Shown: positions 2,946-43,023 of the stretch, one piece after another
How the letters are laid out: each line of letters opens with the position of its first letter
Position numbering within the stretch: position 1 is the first letter of the stretch
Assembly: GCF_025698945.1 (NCBI RefSeq)
Contig: NZ_JAILWM010000001.1
Span: forward strand, 744,001-808,000
Direction of reading: 5' to 3'
Length of the DNA: 64,000 nt
Source of the DNA: Nitrosopumilus sp.
GTDB taxonomy: Archaea; Thermoproteota; Nitrososphaeria; Nitrososphaerales; Nitrosopumilaceae
Program-made: the position numbers and the translations under genes
The notes under the pieces: model-generated
What the model saw: the letters and a program-made list of their open reading frames with translations, nothing else
What the model was told of the DNA's origin: nothing
The model's database searches: none

Positions 2946-3012
2946 AAAAAGATATTTCTATATGGCTAACTTTTTGTGGTATGCCTTTATTATTAGGATT
3001 ATTCGAAAGAGT

Positions 3013-11506: not shown

Positions 11507-12841
11507 TTATTTTACTTGTAAAAGTAAACCATAAAGTTTTGCGCGTGACTCCAAAAGGTCAGCACGTAATTTGCTAATCTTTTGTGTAATTTCAGATGCT
11601 AATTCTTCTTCAGCAGGACCCAATTGTTTTGATACGAGTTTATTTAGTGCTGTTCTTTCAGAACCCAATTGAGTTTCTAAATCAGAAATTAGTTTTTCCA
11701 AATCAGCAATTTGTGTTGAAACACCAGAGTTTTCACTAATTGTGGTCACAATAGAATCAGAATCTATTGCATTGATTCTTGTAATTCCTACTTGACATGA
11801 ATTTGGAATAATTTTATCAATGAATTTAACATCTACTGATTCAGAATCAGAGCTCACAGTAATCAGAGGCAATCTTATTGTATCTTTTCCAGAACATGCT
11901 TCAAAAACTACATTGTATCGTTTTAGATCAGGAGAACCTGTTTCAGGTTTTAATACACTTTCAGTAACAGAAATGAGTTCAGTTGTTAATCCTTCAAGAG
12001 GTTTTCCAGTCAGAGTTTTTGGGATATTTAGTTGTGACACATTTAGATTTGAAGGAACATAAAGAACCATCAAATATCTCCTTAATTCGTCTTGAAAGGA
12101 TTGGAGTTCTTTCTTCATTGAAATAATACTAGTCAAATTTTCACCATCAGGTTTTTGCTCAGAGGATACTGGAATTTTTTGCTTAGCAGTGTTTATTTTA
12201 TTTTTGAGTTCTGCAATTTTATTTTCCAATGTAATGATCTTGTCAGACACTCCTCCCATATTCACCATTGTACCAGTAATAGAATCAGGGTTTGCTGCTT
12301 TGATTAAAACAGATGTAGTATAGCATGAATTAGGTTTTAGCATACTACCCAATTTTACACTATGAGTTTCACTATCAGAGGTTACAATTATTTCAGGCGT
12401 TCGAATTTCAGTTGATTTTGCACATGCATCAAAAACAAACGCATATCCTGTTATGCTAGTAGAGGTTCCTGCCTTGGTATTTTTAGAGAGTTGTTTTAAA
12501 ACAGCAATCTTATTTATTTTCCCAACAGGTTCTCCTTTGGATAATTTCATAATTCTTATTTCTTCAAGGTCTTCTGCAGATAGTTTTTTTGCCCAACCAT
12601 ACTCAGATAATTTTTCTGCAGTTGATGGTGTTACACAAGATGGAGCACTAGAAGATATTTTGAATACTTTAACTAAACCTTCACCACAGATTACTTGGTC
12701 AGCTGAAAAATTTAGTTTTATTTGTTGTTTAGGAGAAATTACATCAGCAAAAGTTTGTGAATGTAAAGTTCCAGATATTAAAACAACACCTAAGAACATC
12801 GCAATCCAAATAGAGGATTTCACATTAGATATTTTATACAT
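11507..12841 (-). CDS. Secreted protein with internal duplication and coiled coils
   Basis: The frame is open from 12856, but the ATG at 12841 (MYKISNVKSS) gives a cleaner signal peptide of about 32 residues ending near FADV. The mature part starts with a cysteine-pair module, C-x-EGL then CVTPSTAEKL, also found at 58254-59237. Two copies of a unit follow, each with a beta domain (FDACAKSTEIRTPEI and FEACSGKDTIRLPLI; SDSETHSVKL and SDSESVDVKF) and then a heptad-rich coiled coil. It is probably an extracellular or S-layer-associated structural protein. I recognise no enzyme motif. Confidence 0.75.
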   Translation of the reverse strand: MYKISNVKSSIWIAMFLGVVLISGTLHSQTFADVISPKQQIKLNFSADQVICGEGLVKVFKISSSAPSCVTPSTAEKLSEYGWAKKLSAEDLEEIRIMKLSKGEPVGKINKIAVLKQLSKNTKAGTSTSITGYAFVFDACAKSTEIRTPEIIVTSDSETHSVKLGSMLKPNSCYTTSVLIKAANPDSITGTMVNMGGVSDKIITLENKIAELKNKINTAKQKIPVSSEQKPDGENLTSIISMKKELQSFQDELRRYLMVLYVPSNLNVSQLNIPKTLTGKPLEGLTTELISVTESVLKPETGSPDLKRYNVVFEACSGKDTIRLPLITVSSDSESVDVKFIDKIIPNSCQVGITRINAIDSDSIVTTISENSGVSTQIADLEKLISDLETQLGSERTALNKLVSKQLGPAEEELASEITQKISKLRADLLESRAKLYGLLLQVK

Positions 12842-12950
12842 GACACTAAAAAGCATTACCCATGATTATTGTTTTAGAACAACTCAGATTGTAGAACATT
12901 TTTCTATTTTTTGATATAGGGAATTCATATCTATTAATTACTTTTGAAAT

Positions 12951-12962
12951 ATGGCATGCCAA
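12951..12962. promoter_or_regulatory. GTGGYATGCC-family motif copy (palindromic TGGCATGCCA)
   Basis: The stretch 12952-12961 is the perfect 10-base palindrome TGGCATGCCA. It sits 10 bases beyond the stop of the zinc-ribbon gene at 12971-13174. It is one of eight related intergenic copies in the window. Confidence 0.4.
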
Positions 12963-12970
12963 AAATCGTA

Positions 12971-13174
12971 TCAATGCAATATGCCCATCAGAGGTTTTTT
13001 AGTATTGGATTCATCCACTCTAAAACATAATTGATCATGTGATCTCGGAATAGTTGGATATGCACAAATTCTACAAATAAACTGTGTAGCTGCTTTACAT
13101 TTTGCGCAAATTAAAAGTTCCATGAGCAACCCACCACAACGTCTACATGACTCATCAGGCAAGTCCCACATCAC
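12971..13174 (-). CDS. Small double zinc-ribbon protein
   Basis: A 67-residue protein dominated by cysteine pairs: CRRCGG, CAKCKA and CRIC, with a further HDQLC near the C-terminus. This suits two zinc-binding knuckles. It starts at ATG 13174 (a second ATG follows at once). A TATA-like CAATTATAAC lies about 40 bases upstream, and a GTGGCATGCC motif lies 63 bases upstream on the far side of that TATA element; another copy lies just after the stop. Such proteins usually bind nucleic acids or act as adaptors. The function is unknown. Confidence 0.65.
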   Translation of the reverse strand: MMWDLPDESCRRCGGLLMELLICAKCKAATQFICRICAYPTIPRSHDQLCFRVDESNTKKPLMGILH

Positions 13175-13236
13175 CGTTTTTTGATAGTTTCATACAGCAG
13201 GTTTTCCCAGAGTTATAATTGGATGACCAACATGTT

Positions 13237-13250
13237 GTGGCATGCCATAG
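13237..13250. promoter_or_regulatory. GTGGYATGCC-family motif upstream of a zinc-ribbon gene
   Basis: GTGGCATGCC at 13237-13246 lies upstream of the TATA-like element of the gene at 12971-13174. Read towards that gene it is GGCATGCCAC, the same orientation as the copies before the genes at 17575 and 18931. An operator role is inferred from this arrangement. Confidence 0.4.
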
Positions 13251-13302
13251 AAAATGAGCCTAGAAGAAAAGCAGATTTGCAAAAATCAGTATCTGTTTGA
13301 GA

Positions 13303-13857
13303 TTATAGTAATTTTCTTACCATTTTTGAGGGTGGAAGAGAATCATAGATCCAAAAAAACTCTGTAGTGTCAGGATTTTTAGCTGAGATTTGAGCCCAAA
13401 ATGAGCCACATTTACCTTCAAATGGCCTTGGAATATTTCCATAAAATTGTTCTTTATCAGAGATAATTAGAACATATTTTGATTTTTGATTATTTTCAGA
13501 GCATAAACTAAATTTTACCAAATACTGCTCATGTCCAATTTTCATTTTAGAGATAATATTAGGATTCGATTGAGATTTAGATGTAATACTAGTTAAAAAA
13601 GAAAGATATTTTTCATCAACAAGATCTTTCCCAACAAAAGTCCAGTTATGAGAATTGAATAATTTCAAACATGCATCTAATGTCGGATGTGCAGGATAAC
13701 GTTTTCGTAATCCATCTTCTCCCAAATTTTTAAATTTTTCATAGAAATTTTTACATCTTTTTTCCGTACTTTGTTTCAAAGTTTCTGCATGAGATTCTAA
13801 AATCACATAATTTGAAAACAATAATACAGACATAAGCAACACGATAAATTTTCTCAT
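13303..13857 (-). CDS. Secreted protein, unknown function
   Basis: A 184-residue protein with a clear signal peptide (residues 1-24, core FIVLLMSVLLFSNYVIL, cleavage near SHA-ET). The mature domain contains four cysteines (RCKNFYEKF, DACLKLF, FSLCSENN, GKCGSFW) that could form two disulfides. A mixed alpha/beta pattern with strands around YLVKFSLC and KYVLIISD is seen. No membrane anchor follows. Four evenly placed cysteines in an exported protein suggest a compact, disulfide-stabilised fold. No family was recognised. Confidence 0.65.
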   Translation of the reverse strand: MRKFIVLLMSVLLFSNYVILESHAETLKQSTEKRCKNFYEKFKNLGEDGLRKRYPAHPTLDACLKLFNSHNWTFVGKDLVDEKYLSFLTSITSKSQSNPNIISKMKIGHEQYLVKFSLCSENNQKSKYVLIISDKEQFYGNIPRPFEGKCGSFWAQISAKNPDTTEFFWIYDSLPPSKMVRKLL

Positions 13858-14307
13858 ATCAAATTTTTAAAAAGTAAAACTAAAAACAGAATAATAACAA
13901 ACCGGAATTATATTTCAATTGGGGTTTTTGAATAAATTGAAACATGATAGATTTACATCTTATGTTTCATTAATACCAAGTTGAGTTTTTGTCTGTTTAC
14001 CAATGTAAGAACCTCCAAGTCAACATTTGGCAGTTATTATTTAACCATAGATTGATACCTGTGGCATGCTACATTGTTATTAATCAGTTTTTTTGGAATG
14101 AAATCTTTGGCCAAGAACCATATTTTGTTTTTACTCTATTGATTTTCATATTCTCACCACCTATAGGATTTTTCTGTAACAGATATTGTTTTCAGAGTAG
14201 AAGATTCAGATACTTTTTTTGAAATGATGTTAGTATTATTCATGCATGTTGTTAACATGATTATAATTAGTGAAGTTATTATTTGGGAATGCCCAACATA
14301 ATGTGGC
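13858..14307. other. 450-base non-coding stretch with inverted repeat and two motif copies
   Basis: I see no convincing gene here. The longest frame (77 codons from a TTG at 13989) has a composition rich in Phe, Cys and Ile and no start signal. The stretch holds an 8-base inverted repeat (TGAAACAT at 13938-13945 and ATGTTTCA at 13962-13969), a GTGGCATGCT copy at 14061-14070, and a GTGGCATGCC copy at 14303-14312 that runs into the next start codon. It could contain a decayed gene or regulatory RNA. Confidence 0.4.
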
Positions 14308-15171
14308 ATGCCATCAGAACCACTTGAAACATTTTATGGGAATTTACATGCCTATAAGATGTATACAAGGCCAACGGCTCAAAGGCTGTTTGGAAGTTAT
14401 TCCTTTAGAAAAAGATCAGGCACCAAACATCACGAAAATGTTCAAAAGATGTTGGAGATTTTAGCCCTTAATGGAACACTAACAACATGGGGAATGGCAA
14501 AAACTCACCTAGACAAAACGGAGGGAATCAGGACTAAAGAGAAAGAATACAGAAGATTACTTGTTGGAAGAATGGCAAGAGGCAAACATACAATGGGTCT
14601 CTTAGAAGTAGGTCTTGTTGTAAAAGATGGGAAAAGTTTTGCAAAAGCTCCTGCTGATCAATACAGATTATCATTGCATGGAATTTTGTATTGTTTGGAT
14701 GTTTTAGATCTATCAGATAAACAAATTGATACAATGGCTGAAAAATATGCAAATGTGCTGCCTATGGTTTTTGAAAAATGGAAAGATCTGAAAGCAAATA
14801 TCGGAAATGAAGTTTATCGATTAAAAAATTTAGCTTCAGGTTTGTTTATGGACAATATTCAAATTGCAAAGATTTCAAATTTTCCCGTTTATGAATTAAT
14901 GACATATTTGAATGTAAAATATCAAAACAATTTTGAGCAAATATCAGAAGAAGATTTGGCAAATCAAATTTCCATATGGTTTTATACAAATCTGCTTGTC
15001 CCTACAAAATTTAGAACAACTGGTAAACATTCATCATTAGAGATAAAACAATGGAAAAAAATTATTCAGAAAGATCCAAAAATCAAAAAATGGTATTACG
15101 ATTTTGTAAATGAAGCCATCAAATTCTACAATAACAGATTCAATAAGTTAAAGAAATTAGAAAAAAATTAA
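14308..15171 (+). CDS. Thaumarchaeal protein with helix-turn-helix-like N-terminus
   Basis: A 287-residue cytoplasmic protein, basic at both ends (C-terminus NRFNKLKKLEKN). Residues 40-115 look like a winged-helix domain (HHENVQKMLEILALNGTLTTWGMAKTHL, then a basic region and a turn LLEVGLVVKDG). The rest is helical, with no enzyme motif that I recognise. The ATG lies inside a GTGGCATGCC motif, so binding of a regulator to that motif would cover the start. It overlaps the convergent receiver gene by 4 bases. It may be a DNA-binding regulator; this is inference from the HTH-like region. Confidence 0.6.
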   Translation: MPSEPLETFYGNLHAYKMYTRPTAQRLFGSYSFRKRSGTKHHENVQKMLEILALNGTLTTWGMAKTHLDKTEGIRTKEKEYRRLLVGRMARGKHTMGLLEVGLVVKDGKSFAKAPADQYRLSLHGILYCLDVLDLSDKQIDTMAEKYANVLPMVFEKWKDLKANIGNEVYRLKNLASGLFMDNIQIAKISNFPVYELMTYLNVKYQNNFEQISEEDLANQISIWFYTNLLVPTKFRTTGKHSSLEIKQWKKIIQKDPKIKKWYYDFVNEAIKFYNNRFNKLKKLEKN

Positions 15172-15536
15172 TCAGTAAATTTTGTGACTATATCTTCAAG
15201 TTGTTCAAAAGAATAGGGTTTGTTTATAGTAGCTAGTAATGACATACTTTTTGCTTTAAGATGTTTTTTTTCATCTACTGCAAATGCGGTAATTAGAACA
15301 ATTTTGGCTTCAGAATCAAATTGTTTAATTTTAAAAAATGCATCAAATCCATCCATTTTAGGCATTTTAACATCCATGAGTGTCAAATCAGGACTAATTT
15401 CTTTATATTTTTCAACAGCATCTTGTCCATTCTCAGCAGTCACAACATCACAGCCTAGACTCTTAATCATATAGGCTGTATTTTCTAAAAGATCAATATC
15501 ATCATCCACCAAAAGGACAGTTTTCTTTAATGACAT
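15168..15536 (-). CDS. Single-domain response regulator (CheY-like receiver)
   Basis: A receiver domain with no output domain, 122 residues from the ATG at 15536; a TTG at 15554 would add six residues but is less likely. Seen in sequence: acidic triad DDD at 11-13, phospho-acceptor Asp55 in LMDVKMPKMDG, switch Thr near 84 (LITAFA) and Lys near 105 (INKPYSF). It is encoded directly downstream of the sensor kinase at 15594-17501, 57 bases apart, and surely takes phosphate from it. It should signal by protein contact rather than direct DNA binding. Confidence 0.93.
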   Translation of the reverse strand: MSLKKTVLLVDDDIDLLENTAYMIKSLGCDVVTAENGQDAVEKYKEISPDLTLMDVKMPKMDGFDAFFKIKQFDSEAKIVLITAFAVDEKKHLKAKSMSLLATINKPYSFEQLEDIVTKFTD

Positions 15537-15593
15537 AGTAAATTCCAGTATCAATGCTTGTGATAAAACTTTCGAAAGAATTGTCTTTTTTTA

Positions 15594-17501
15594 TCATAGA
15601 AGAGGCAAAGTCACAATAAATCGAGTTGGGTTGTTTTGGGCAACAATAGTTCCATTATGTAGTTCTATGACATTTTTACATGTAGATAATCCAAGTCCTG
15701 TTCCTTTTTGTTTAGATGAGATCAAGGGATCAAATATCTTAGGGAATACATCTTCAGGAATTCCAGGACCTGAATCTTGTATCATAATAATAGCAGAGGT
15801 ATTTTTTTCTTCAATTGTGCAGTTAATAATTCCAGCCTCTTTTCCTATGGCTTGAATAGCATTTAAAAACAAATTAATAAAAACAATTTCTAATTTTCTT
15901 AGATCACCTCTTATTTCTAGATTAGATTTTGGAATAACAATGGATACATTATCTGGAATTTCTAAAGAAGTTTTTGCAGATTCTAATAAATCCTGAATTT
16001 TTATTGGTTGCAATTCTAAAGGAGTGATTCTTACAAAATTAAGTACATCATTAATTTGATGTGACATTCTATCAATTGCGCGATTCATTCTATTTACAAC
16101 CTCATTTAGTTCGTCTGTTTGTTTTGCATTATTTTTTAAAATTTCAGTTGAGCTTTTTATTGTTGCAAGAGGGTTTTTCATGTCATGTGCCATACTTGCA
16201 GCTAGTTCACCAATAGCAGTTAATCTTTCATTTTTAATTTTGACTTTGGCTTCAGCTAATTGTTTTTCTGTTTCAATAAGCTTTTTTAGATGACTTGTCA
16301 TATCTTCAAAAGAATTACTTATTGTTTGAATTTCATTAATTTTGCTAGGTTTAATTTTGATATTAAAATTTCCCCTTGAAATAGAATTAGCAATTTTTGT
16401 AAGACGCTTCAATGGAGATGAAACTGTGCTTGAAATTAAGAATCCACCAATTATCGAGGCTGCCATTCCTGCAATAGATACTGCAAAAATTGAATTTCGA
16501 AGTTCAATGAATTCGCTCACTATTGAGGAACTATCCTGCTCAATTACTACTGTCCAATCAAATCCCTCAAATGTTCTATATCCGGTAGATTTTGCATAGG
16601 AAATTAATTTAAAATCATCAATAGCATCATCCAATTCAAAAAACTCTACATCTTCACCTTGAATTAAAATATCAAAATAAGGAACTGTTAAAGCAGAAAG
16701 TAGAATAGTTTGTTCCGAATAAATTGGACGTCCAAGCTCATCTAAAAGTACAACACTACGTCCAGGAATTGTAATTACATCAGATTCCTCGCTGAAGTCA
16801 CTTAGAAGATCATTTAATGTAATTGACGCTCTTAAAACTCCTATAAAATTATCATTCTCATCATTAATGGCATAGGCAAAATCCATTGAGTAAGAATTTG
16901 TAGATTCATTAAATTTTATTTTATCAATATGTAATCCAGTATTTTTAGTAATTTGCCACCATTCTTCTTCACTTTGAGAATATACTGAAGTTCCCGAGGT
17001 AAGTGCAACATTTGCACCATATGCATTTGTTACAAATAATTCCTCAATTACATCGTAATTATATTCATCATGATAAAATTCAATTGTGTCCAATAATTCA
17101 TCTGTGAGAACACGATCCTCAAGTTCGCCAAGAAAAGGAGTCGTTTCAGTAAATTTAGCATCAGTGGATTCTAAATTCAAATGAGACTTCATTTCCTGGA
17201 ATCGCTCATATTTTTTATTTGAGTCAAGTAGTACATCCTGAATTATTTTTAAATTAGTCAATTCCTTAAAAGCCAAAATTCTGTTTTCAATGTGCTTGTC
17301 AAGGCCTTGGATCATGTTAAATGCAAATCCCTCATTTCTTGAGCCCAATAATTCCTTTATTTCATCAACTGTAATTTCAAAAGTCACATATCCTACTATA
17401 GTAAAGGATAGAGAGATTGCAAACATCACTGCAATTATCATAAAAGAGATTTTCAAGAGATATACTAGCCAAGATCTAAGACATTTGAATTTAAAGATCA
17501 C
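15594..17501 (-). CDS. Membrane sensor histidine kinase with extracytoplasmic sensor
   Basis: A 635-residue kinase. It has a first membrane helix (about residues 10-36), a roughly 300-residue extracellular sensor of the double Cache type, and a second membrane helix (about 341-362). HAMP, the HisKA helix with phospho-His near residue 438 (AHDMKNPLATI) and a HATPase domain with N box (FINLFLNAIQAIG), DSGPGIPEDVF and GTGLGLSTCKN follow. It senses an external small molecule and phosphorylates the receiver encoded next to it. The start is GTG at 17501; a GTGGTATGCT motif lies 20 bases upstream. The ligand is unknown; Cache domains often bind amino acids or organic acids. Confidence 0.93.
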   Translation of the reverse strand: MIFKFKCLRSWLVYLLKISFMIIAVMFAISLSFTIVGYVTFEITVDEIKELLGSRNEGFAFNMIQGLDKHIENRILAFKELTNLKIIQDVLLDSNKKYERFQEMKSHLNLESTDAKFTETTPFLGELEDRVLTDELLDTIEFYHDEYNYDVIEELFVTNAYGANVALTSGTSVYSQSEEEWWQITKNTGLHIDKIKFNESTNSYSMDFAYAINDENDNFIGVLRASITLNDLLSDFSEESDVITIPGRSVVLLDELGRPIYSEQTILLSALTVPYFDILIQGEDVEFFELDDAIDDFKLISYAKSTGYRTFEGFDWTVVIEQDSSSIVSEFIELRNSIFAVSIAGMAASIIGGFLISSTVSSPLKRLTKIANSISRGNFNIKIKPSKINEIQTISNSFEDMTSHLKKLIETEKQLAEAKVKIKNERLTAIGELAASMAHDMKNPLATIKSSTEILKNNAKQTDELNEVVNRMNRAIDRMSHQINDVLNFVRITPLELQPIKIQDLLESAKTSLEIPDNVSIVIPKSNLEIRGDLRKLEIVFINLFLNAIQAIGKEAGIINCTIEEKNTSAIIMIQDSGPGIPEDVFPKIFDPLISSKQKGTGLGLSTCKNVIELHNGTIVAQNNPTRFIVTLPLL

Positions 17502-17520
17502 TAATTGGTATTAAAAAAAT

Positions 17521-17562
17521 AGCATACCACAAAATACAAGTTAATTCCAAATAGCATACATA
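17521..17562. promoter_or_regulatory. GTGGYATGCC-family motif between divergent kinase and zinc-protein genes
   Basis: AGCATACCAC at 17521-17530 is the reverse complement of GTGGTATGCT. It lies 20 bases before the kinase start and 45 bases before the zinc-protein start at 17575. A partial second copy (TAGCATACA) lies at about 17552-17560. A shared regulator for both genes is a reasonable inference. Confidence 0.4.
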
Positions 17563-17574
17563 ACAAGAATTTGC

Positions 17575-17868
17575 ATGTTAGGCTTATCGTCTTTCAAAAA
17601 CTTGATGGAAAAAGAATCAAAGAAGAGTCACAGCAATTCAAATCTTAAGGATAGTTTAGATAAAGAAGACATATCCAGAGAGATTTTTTATGCCTGTGGT
17701 ATTTGTGAAGGACCATTAGTTCCAGTGTCTAGCTGCACATTTTGTAAGAGAACATCATTGAGGAGATGTAATAGGTGTAATAGAATTAAAGATATGAAAG
17801 TTCATGAATCGTGTAAGATTTTAGTGAATTTTGGATGGGCTATTGCAAAAAAGCATCTTCAGGAGTAA
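17575..17868 (+). CDS. Zinc-ribbon protein, unknown function
   Basis: A 97-residue protein with a Lys/Ser-rich N-terminal tail of about 35 residues. A cysteine-rich core follows: CGICEGPLVPVSSCTFCKRTS, then RCNRCNRIKDMKVHESC, matching two C-x2-C pairs plus further C/H ligands. The fold is probably a double zinc ribbon or treble clef. The stretch between cysteines is basic, as in nucleic-acid binders. It is divergent from the histidine kinase and shares with it the GTGGYATGCC-type motif. No specific family was recognised. Confidence 0.65.
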   Translation: MLGLSSFKNLMEKESKKSHSNSNLKDSLDKEDISREIFYACGICEGPLVPVSSCTFCKRTSLRRCNRCNRIKDMKVHESCKILVNFGWAIAKKHLQE

Positions 17869-17953
17869 TTTGGATTTATCTAAGATAATTTTCAATAATG
17901 TTGTTTTATACACACCATAAAATCAATTAGTTAATACTAAAATTACCATAAAA

Positions 17954-18358
17954 ATGTCAATAATCATGCCAATACTCTCAGCAGAAGATCTCAAAAAACT
18001 TGATGAACAATGTCAAAAACTCTCAGAAGAAGAGAAAGTAAGACATGTAGGAGTAATTAATGAACTAGGACATTTAATTGCAGGAGGATTTAGAAAAGGA
18101 GTCACCCCAATATTATCAAAAGACAGAATTAAAATGGTATACATGCAAATGCAATTAGATTTTAACATGAGACAAGAATTAGATGACGTTCTTGGAACTA
18201 TTGATTATATTGCATCACGAAGAACAAAGCAACTTATTATCAGTGTACCTGTTGGAGAAAACTTGGTTTTAATAACTGCAGAGCCAGATGCAGATGATAA
18301 AAAAATCATCAAAAAAGCTGAAGAATTATTTGACGGTATAACAATATCAACAATTTAG
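17954..18358 (+). CDS. Conserved-looking thaumarchaeal cytoplasmic protein
   Basis: A 134-residue protein without signal peptide or cysteine-rich motifs beyond one Cys (DEQCQKL). The pattern is helix (residues 8-32), strand (HVGVINELGHLIAG), long helix, then two strands (KQLIISVPVGENLVLITAEP) and a final helix. It looks like a roadblock/profilin-like alpha/beta fold of the type frequent in thaumarchaeotes (I think of the DUF6659 group, but I cannot check). Its promoter region is AT-rich. The role is unknown; roadblock-like proteins often pair with small GTPases. Confidence 0.6.
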   Translation: MSIIMPILSAEDLKKLDEQCQKLSEEEKVRHVGVINELGHLIAGGFRKGVTPILSKDRIKMVYMQMQLDFNMRQELDDVLGTIDYIASRRTKQLIISVPVGENLVLITAEPDADDKKIIKKAEELFDGITISTI

Positions 18359-18474
18359 AAAATAAAACAAGTAGAAAATGAATTTTCAAATAATTACTAT
18401 CAATAATAAGAGAATAAGGTAAATAGGTTTTCAAATTATCTAGCCTGAAAAATAATTAGAAAATTTTGAAAAAG

Positions 18475-18657
18475 TTATGAATGAACCTGTTGTGTTTTTT
18501 TAGTACTCCAGATTTGCTCATTTATTCCATGACATTTGCAATCAGAGGATTTTTCTTTACAATTTTTTTGGTGCAGTGGTTTATCACATTTGTTACAATC
18601 AGGATCACGCCAGCTACATTGATTTCCACAGTTAGAACATCGCATTTTTATAATCAC
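18475..18657 (-). CDS. Small zinc-binding protein, third gene of a micro-operon
   Basis: A cysteine-rich protein of 60 residues from GTG 18657 or 56 from ATG 18645. Metal ligands CSNCGNQC, DCNKCDKPLHQKNC and CKCHG suit two zinc sites. The GTG overlaps the stop of the preceding 39-residue gene (GTGA); the internal ATG would leave a gap of 8 bases. It is the last of three tiny overlapping genes read from 18931. The function is unknown. Confidence 0.6.
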   Translation of the reverse strand: MIIKMRCSNCGNQCSWRDPDCNKCDKPLHQKNCKEKSSDCKCHGINEQIWSTKKTQQVHS

Positions 18658-18773
18658 TTGTGTTTTGTTACTTTTTTGAGATATTCTCTACGTCTCAAAG
18701 ATTTCTCTTGAAATGGTGCAGAATCATCTCCAAAAAGTCTGGCTAATGAATCTTCAACATTGTCATTCGTCAT
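18654..18773 (-). CDS. 39-residue protein, second gene of a micro-operon
   Basis: ATG 18773 opens 39 codons (starts MTNDNVEDSLARLFGDD, ends YLKKVTKHK). The start overlaps the stop of the upstream gene as ATGA, and its own stop overlaps the next start as GTGA. The N-terminus is acidic and the C-terminus strongly basic. The chain of exact overlaps is strong evidence that this very short frame is translated. No family was recognised. Confidence 0.6.
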   Translation of the reverse strand: MTNDNVEDSLARLFGDDSAPFQEKSLRRREYLKKVTKHK

Positions 18774-18931
18774 TTGAGTGACACCTCTTGAAAAATCCAA
18801 CTAAGGCCAAGGGCAGTGTAGGAGGGTTGAGTCTTAAAAGAAAAAACATGTTCTTCTTTTACTGGTAATTTTTCAACCAAAATTTTTGTGGCCTTAGTAT
18901 ATCCAGTGAGAATGCTTTGATTTTCTTGCAT
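18770..18931 (-). CDS. 53-residue protein, first gene of a micro-operon
   Basis: ATG 18931 opens 53 codons (starts MQENQSILTGYTKATKI, ends WIFQEVSLK). It is joined by a 4-base ATGA overlap to the 39-residue gene. It appears as a small alpha/beta peptide with a Trp-Ile-Phe hydrophobic end. The GTGGTATGCC motif lies 48 bases before its start, in the same orientation as before other zinc-ribbon genes. The first two genes of this operon code for no zinc motif, so they may be partners of the third. No family was recognised. Confidence 0.6.
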   Translation of the reverse strand: MQENQSILTGYTKATKILVEKLPVKEEHVFSFKTQPSYTALGLSWIFQEVSLK

Positions 18932-18978
18932 TTGAAATATGTATCAATTATCTGATATTTGAAAATAGATTAAGATTT

Positions 18979-18990
18979 GTGGTATGCCAT
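18979..18990. promoter_or_regulatory. GTGGYATGCC-family motif upstream of the micro-operon
   Basis: GTGGTATGCC at 18979-18988 (GGCATACCAC read towards the operon) lies 48 bases before the ATG at 18931 and upstream of AT-rich promoter-like sequence. Spacing and orientation match the copy before the gene at 17575. Confidence 0.4.
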
Positions 18991-19016
18991 ATTCAAATAA
19001 AATTTAACATGAAATT

Positions 19017-42790: not shown

Positions 42791-42843
42791 AACGTGCGCA
42801 ATTTCTAAGGAAGGTATAAATGATGTTTTTGAAAATTTGTGGT

Positions 42844-43023
42844 ATGTCATCTACTATATCATTACCATCTTGTAGTTGTTGCCACAGACATATTATGCCC
42901 AATGATAAATGTGTAAAATTCAACTGCCCTAATTGCGGTGAAGATTTAATCTGGAGATGTCAGAGTTGCAGAGAGGCAGCAAGAAATTATACTTGCTCAT
43001 CATGTAATGTTTTGGGGCCATAG
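42844..43023 (+). CDS. Zinc-ribbon protein of the HVO_2753/DUF1610 type
   Basis: A 59-residue protein with four C-x2-C knuckles: [22 protein letters not shown] and CSSCNV, with [10 protein letters not shown] and RCQSCRE matching the archaeal mini zinc-finger family. The frame is open from 42820 but ATG 42844 is preferred because it gives the family length; it lies in the motif GTGGTATGTC. It is encoded 4 bases before aEF-1beta, an arrangement known from other archaea (Haloferax HVO_2753 precedes the EF-1beta gene). A ribosome-linked role is possible. Confidence 0.8.

Follow-up and report, generated by a model that had tools for sequence, protein, structure and literature searches.

We identified a candidate regulatory system in a 64,000-nucleotide stretch of Nitrosopumilus sp. 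DNA, here called the window. We consider it likely that a short motif recurring in the window is an arm of the operator of a transcription factor encoded at 14308, which would repress its own gene and activate a regulon led by microprotein genes. The computed basis of this explanation is the anatomy of the operator, the fixed position of the start codon relative to it, its autoregulatory placement, and its co-occurrence with the regulator; from these sequence patterns we infer binding, dimerization, and the direction of regulation.

An earlier note on this DNA reported eight copies of GTGGYATGYY in the window and proposed that they define an undescribed regulon of zinc-ribbon proteins. Seven of the copies are exact (2976, 13237, 14061, 14303, 17521 on the minus strand, 18979, and 42839), but the one at 12952 reads ATGGCATGCC, and the palindrome assigned to two copies, TGGCATGCCA, was found three times (12952, 13237, and 14303). 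So many copies are indeed not expected by chance within the window (7 versus 0.46 expected, with none of 100 shuffles reaching 7), but this did not extend to the genome, where 21 matches to the bare 10-mer compare with 20 for the reversed control. The stand-alone 10-mer was rejected as a functional motif because of this absence of genome-wide enrichment, and it also fails the test set by the earlier note, which had named a genome-wide frequency equal to background as a refutation. Also rejected was a leaderless start-codon element in the orientation given by the earlier note, since the frames that follow mostly run into a stop after a few codons; the ATG within the motif is used as a start only by the regulator gene. 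The extended form TTGTGGYATGC, with two flanking T residues added and the last two bases of the 10-mer dropped, is enriched in the window's own genome (12 versus 0 in the control). Among relatives, the counts were 10 versus 2 in G013 and 10 versus 3 in G018, and most others were near background.

Read from the target gene, the site alignment gives the consensus GGCATRCCACAA-N7-GGYATT-N4-AAATAAT, followed by about 20 bases and then TCATG. The operator contains an inverted repeat with ATRCC and GGYAT arms separated by an 11-base spacer (ATRCC-N11-GGYAT), and the TATA box abuts it. A TATA-like hexamer lies on one flank of the aligned sites at fixed spacing, and on their opposite strand an open frame starts about 49 to 53 bases off. 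The earlier note had thus seen part of the motif, in the wrong orientation: the functional element is the 43-nucleotide operator plus TATA box, of which the 10-mer is only a part. For genome-wide counts, a pattern search was combined with a search using R1, a 43-position sequence model of the operator and TATA box, in which the invariance of the seed 10-mer partly reflects selection bias. R1 found 13 strong sites in the window's own genome, with a gap from E = 3e-4 to 0.27 before the next match. In the sites from which the model was built, the start codon falls at +50/51. At held-out sites, from genomes outside model building, an open frame of at least 35 residues has its start codon at +50 to +53 in 37 of 65 cases, compared with 2.6% of random positions; the associated P value is nominal, since orthologous sites are not independent and the binomial test ignores shared ancestry. 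At several of the sites, the start of the gene lies beyond +50. In ordinary genes of the window, the TATA position showed a weak peak near −26, the 42 ORFs being too few for calibration. The sites and genes in the window are as follows.

14308..15171, plus strand: candidate regulator gene, encoding a 287-aa predicted winged-helix protein, with its ATG inside the motif
14277..14314, minus strand: operator and TATA box, predicted to be autoregulatory, overlapping the start codon at 14308 (R1 E = 1.8e-6)
18954..18993, minus strand: operator and TATA box of the putative microprotein operon (R1 E = 1.2e-8)
18770..18931, minus strand: GLSWIF microprotein, 53 aa, start at +53
18654..18800, minus strand: 48-aa small ORF located between the GLSWIF microprotein gene and the Cys-rich ORF, presumably cotranscribed
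18475..18657, minus strand: small Cys-rich ORF, 60 aa, possible operon member, cotranscription presumed
17519..17553, plus strand: operator and TATA box of a zinc-ribbon gene, kept in orthologs (R1 E = 6.3e-5)
17575..17868, plus strand: zinc-ribbon-like protein, 97 aa, start at +50
13211..13249, minus strand: operator and TATA box of a double-zinc-ribbon-like gene (R1 E = 2.1e-5)
12971..13174, minus strand: Cys-rich ORF, 67 aa, weakly matching a double zinc ribbon, with its start at +68 versus the standard +50
14035..14074, minus strand: operator and TATA box before a secreted-protein gene with a long leader, an arrangement shared by G062 (R1 E = 2.9e-4)
13303..13857, minus strand: putative secreted protein, 184 aa; in G013 and G041, its 182-aa orthologs begin at +53/+55
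2950..2990, minus strand: operator and TATA box before a secreted-protein gene starting near 2863 (R1 E = 1.5e-7)
12929..12963, minus strand: degenerate site, the 12952 copy of the earlier note, before the gene at 11507-12856 (R1 E = 3.0 only)
42839..42848, plus strand: motif copy rejected as chance, with no R1 match and unconserved in seven orthologs

The clustering pointed out by the earlier note was borne out, in that the window contains 6 of the genome's 13 strong sites, all within 16 kb, an arrangement that none of 100,000 random placements matched. If the promoter were carried by a mobile or repeated element, its dispersed copies might also cluster in this way, and two sites on contig 4 of the window's genome (G000) share their gene-side flank. 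However, the flanks beyond the operator and TATA box are unrelated at most sites, and sites are kept at orthologous genes across genomes, which makes such an origin extremely improbable. The distance of 45 to 63 bp from site to start, as first reported, holds for the genes at 17575 and 18931. The gene "at 12971" is on the minus strand and has its 3′ end at that coordinate; the site belonging to it is the copy at 13237. Homologs of the 11507-12856 gene are likewise preceded by a weak site in G062 and G110. The zinc-ribbon gene that was said to start inside the motif (42839/42844) was dropped, its site having no R1 match even at E ≤ 10 and GTGGTATG being present in one of seven orthologous loci. 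As a separate observation, a DUF6659 protein (Pfam E 1.3e-11) is encoded at 17954-18358, adjoining the zinc-ribbon gene.

The main target class consists of microproteins of 48 to 60 residues that share, near the C terminus, the motif D-x-x-G-L-S/T-W-I-F, in the form D-M-x-G-L-S/T-W-I-F (GLSWIF microproteins). They belong to no Pfam or NCBIfam family, and the predicted structure is of low confidence (pLDDT 65). Other targets are one zinc-ribbon family (17575-17868 in the window), putative secreted proteins, and genes with structured 5′ leaders. The site upstream of the 17575 family, which starts at +50 to +55, is conserved in seven genomes (G000, G003, G013, G041, G062, G068, and G110), as the zinc-ribbon proposal had called for. 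A regulon dedicated to zinc-ribbon proteins could draw on this conservation and on the two or three Cys-rich targets in the window, but most sites precede microproteins or secreted proteins and the 42839 copy is a chance occurrence, so we regard it as highly improbable. What stands of the original proposal is the regulon itself; zinc ribbons are a minority of its targets, and most are GLSWIF microproteins.

Several observations were made alongside these targets. A conserved structured leader (GGCGAAAACGTAAGAGG...CCTCNTTACGTTTCACC) extends from about +50 to +140 from the site, before a secreted-protein gene, at L085, L016, L155, L159, L166, L179, L190, L191, and L154; it shows changes on both sides at 7 of 27 consensus pairs, and an Rfam search of the leaders in the loci tested matched only a tRNA. 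Downstream of the sites at L175, L160, and L183, a second folded sequence begins with ACGAGAAG and has no obvious open frame; it is possibly a noncoding RNA. Microproteins outside the R1 regulon (L245, L248, L250 to L254, and L256) carry ATGATTTGTTCRTTA-N-GTTTTAAGTAAAT upstream of the start and probably form another regulon. A third microprotein promoter class has TCAACYRGTT about 70 to 75 bases before the ATG (L246, L247, L249, L257, L258, L260, and L264).

The likely reader of the sites is the product of 14308-15171, which is probably a new winged-helix transcription factor, judging from its sequence and modeled structure. It belongs to no Pfam, NCBIfam, or PHROG family (zero Pfam families at E ≤ 0.1, the TrmB domain among those absent). 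Its AF2 model (pLDDT 86) has a winged-helix topology followed by a helical domain, with predicted helices at 40-55, 60-65, and 71-86 and strands at 87-90, 93-96, 104-110, and 116-121. A PDB sequence search with the regulator profile gave spurious matches only, and a fold search with the model found nothing at E ≤ 0.001. Genes for a histidine kinase and a response regulator are neighbors of 14308, the latter with a receiver domain only. Separately, a palindrome, GTGAATGTTTAAATTCAC, lies between the R1 site and the histidine-kinase gene, near the kinase start at L059, L084, and L089; it is degenerate in the window, at about 17480-17510.

The earlier note had named the 14308 product as an example of a regulator to be tested, and this choice is strongly supported by co-occurrence and by the autoregulatory placement of the operator, which occupies −31 to +8 at the regulator gene and does the same in orthologs. 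Nearly all members of the regulator family, down to about 50% identity and across genera, have (C/T)GGYATG across their own start codon; L204 is a family member in which this motif is degenerate. Among 250 Nitrosopumilaceae genomes, all 20 with a regulator ortholog of at least 70% carry at least three R1 sites, compared to 5 of the other 230 (Fisher P = 3e-25, with shared ancestry ignored), and all five exceptions, which have at least three sites but no close ortholog, contain more distant family members. The operator of a different paralog clade has the form TACCG-N5-CGGTATG; of 16 genomes searched, 11 contain a single copy, located at the start codon of the family gene, and in all 11 a divergent GLSWIF microprotein starts at exactly +50. 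Mapped on the protein tree, the operator class at the start codon changes 4 times, against a shuffled mean of 17.1; because operator and gene are linked, this agreement is weak evidence alone. Stronger evidence comes from the remaining sites: where a paralog's own gene has CCGCAA, other sites in the same genome also have CCGCAA (G053, G020, G042, and G043). As to the microprotein partner, the ORF divergent from the regulator in G000, the window's genome, is 34 aa and has no GLSWIF motif; no microprotein was detected in 19 of 65 genomes with a regulator family member, and microproteins occur in 20 genomes that lack the regulator. In G053 (L157 and L187 to L189), a CCGCAACACAATATCAATTG site recurs in near-identical form, in several cases ahead of MTW-type signal-peptide proteins; these copies probably represent a separate expansion under a paralogous regulator.

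A different protein, such as a zinc-ribbon target, a TFB/TBP variant, or the output of the kinase, might read the sites, with the 14308 gene merely another target. That gene is itself a target, and the kinase and response-regulator genes lie nearby. Nonetheless, the motif is found at the gene's own start even in the paralog clade that lacks other genomic copies, and the co-occurrence (20/20 versus 5/230), the predicted winged-helix fold, and the receiver-only response regulator all argue against another reader, which we consider quite unlikely.

With the 14308 product as the reader, the factor probably acts as a dimer on ATRCC-N11-GGYAT. At its own gene, the operator separates the TATA box from the start codon and lies over the probable transcription start, so that the bound factor would be expected to obstruct RNA polymerase (autorepression). 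At the remaining promoters, mostly of leaderless genes, it lies just upstream of the TATA box, and from this constant distance binding would most likely aid TBP/TFB loading (activation). As far as position goes, the operators fit both the upstream-activation and the downstream-repression cases. Alternatively, the same regulator and operator may repress every promoter, including the regulator's own, by blocking TBP/TFB at the BRE/TATA side. About 4 bp separate the TATA box from the end of the inner half-site, which overlaps the BRE position, and Pyrococcus furiosus TrmB represses from a BRE/TATA site (PMC4158304, PMC4706686); however, a rigid position at dozens of unrelated promoters is more typical of an activator, and we consider repression everywhere somewhat unlikely. 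By analogy, autorepression combined with activation is the reading we favor, with reasonable if not firm confidence.

The ancestral unit may have been a regulator and one microprotein, divergent around one TATA box, which in the window's clade would have expanded to a regulon of about 13 sites. We also suggest, as a speculation with a rather low chance of being correct, that regulator and divergent GLSWIF microprotein form a new type of two-gene control module in ammonia-oxidizing archaea. The microprotein would bind its cognate regulator directly and tune it by way of the conserved D-x-x-G-L-S/T-W motif, and in the expanded clade one operator would serve several microproteins in competition with each other.

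In the literature searched (bioRxiv excluded and few subscription papers covered), we found no regulon, operator, or cognate regulator of this kind in ammonia-oxidizing archaea, and the regulator family, operator, microproteins, and divergent arrangement are absent from the family libraries and that literature. These results provide a candidate regulator, an exact operator, the promoter geometry, and a microprotein family. The presence of microprotein genes under at least two further promoter motifs suggests that gene control in these archaea, abundant in the sea and in soil, generally includes such a layer.

We compared this system with known ones. A toxin-antitoxin module was rejected, as neither partner has a family match and the genes are divergent rather than in one operon; PADLOC gave weak matches only. 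The DNA-binding part of the regulator weakly resembles the MarR fold (best probability 0.97, to Escherichia coli MarR), but E is about 0.2, TM is 0.24 (query)/0.46, and the C-terminal helical domain is unmatched. Eukaryotic microProteins that bind transcription factors (PMC5381583) are likewise small proteins linked to a regulator, whereas here no domain common to regulator and microprotein was found. TFB-RF1 and Ptr2 (cited in PMC4158304; PMC5937170) are activators directly upstream of BRE/TATA that contact TFB or TBP; compared by description, the present system differs in that its regulon spans multiple promoters and the start codon of the regulator gene itself carries an operator. Winged-helix regulators with a position-dependent effect are already known: it is established that TrmBL1/Tgr activates when bound upstream of BRE/TATA and represses when bound downstream (PMC4158304, PMC4706686). 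The TrmB operator, TACT-N3-AGTA, and its sugar genes differ from the operator and microprotein targets found here, but TrmB/TrmBL1/Tgr of the Thermococcales and the candidate regulator are alike in the archaeal winged helix, the inverted-repeat operator, and the expected dependence of the effect on position.
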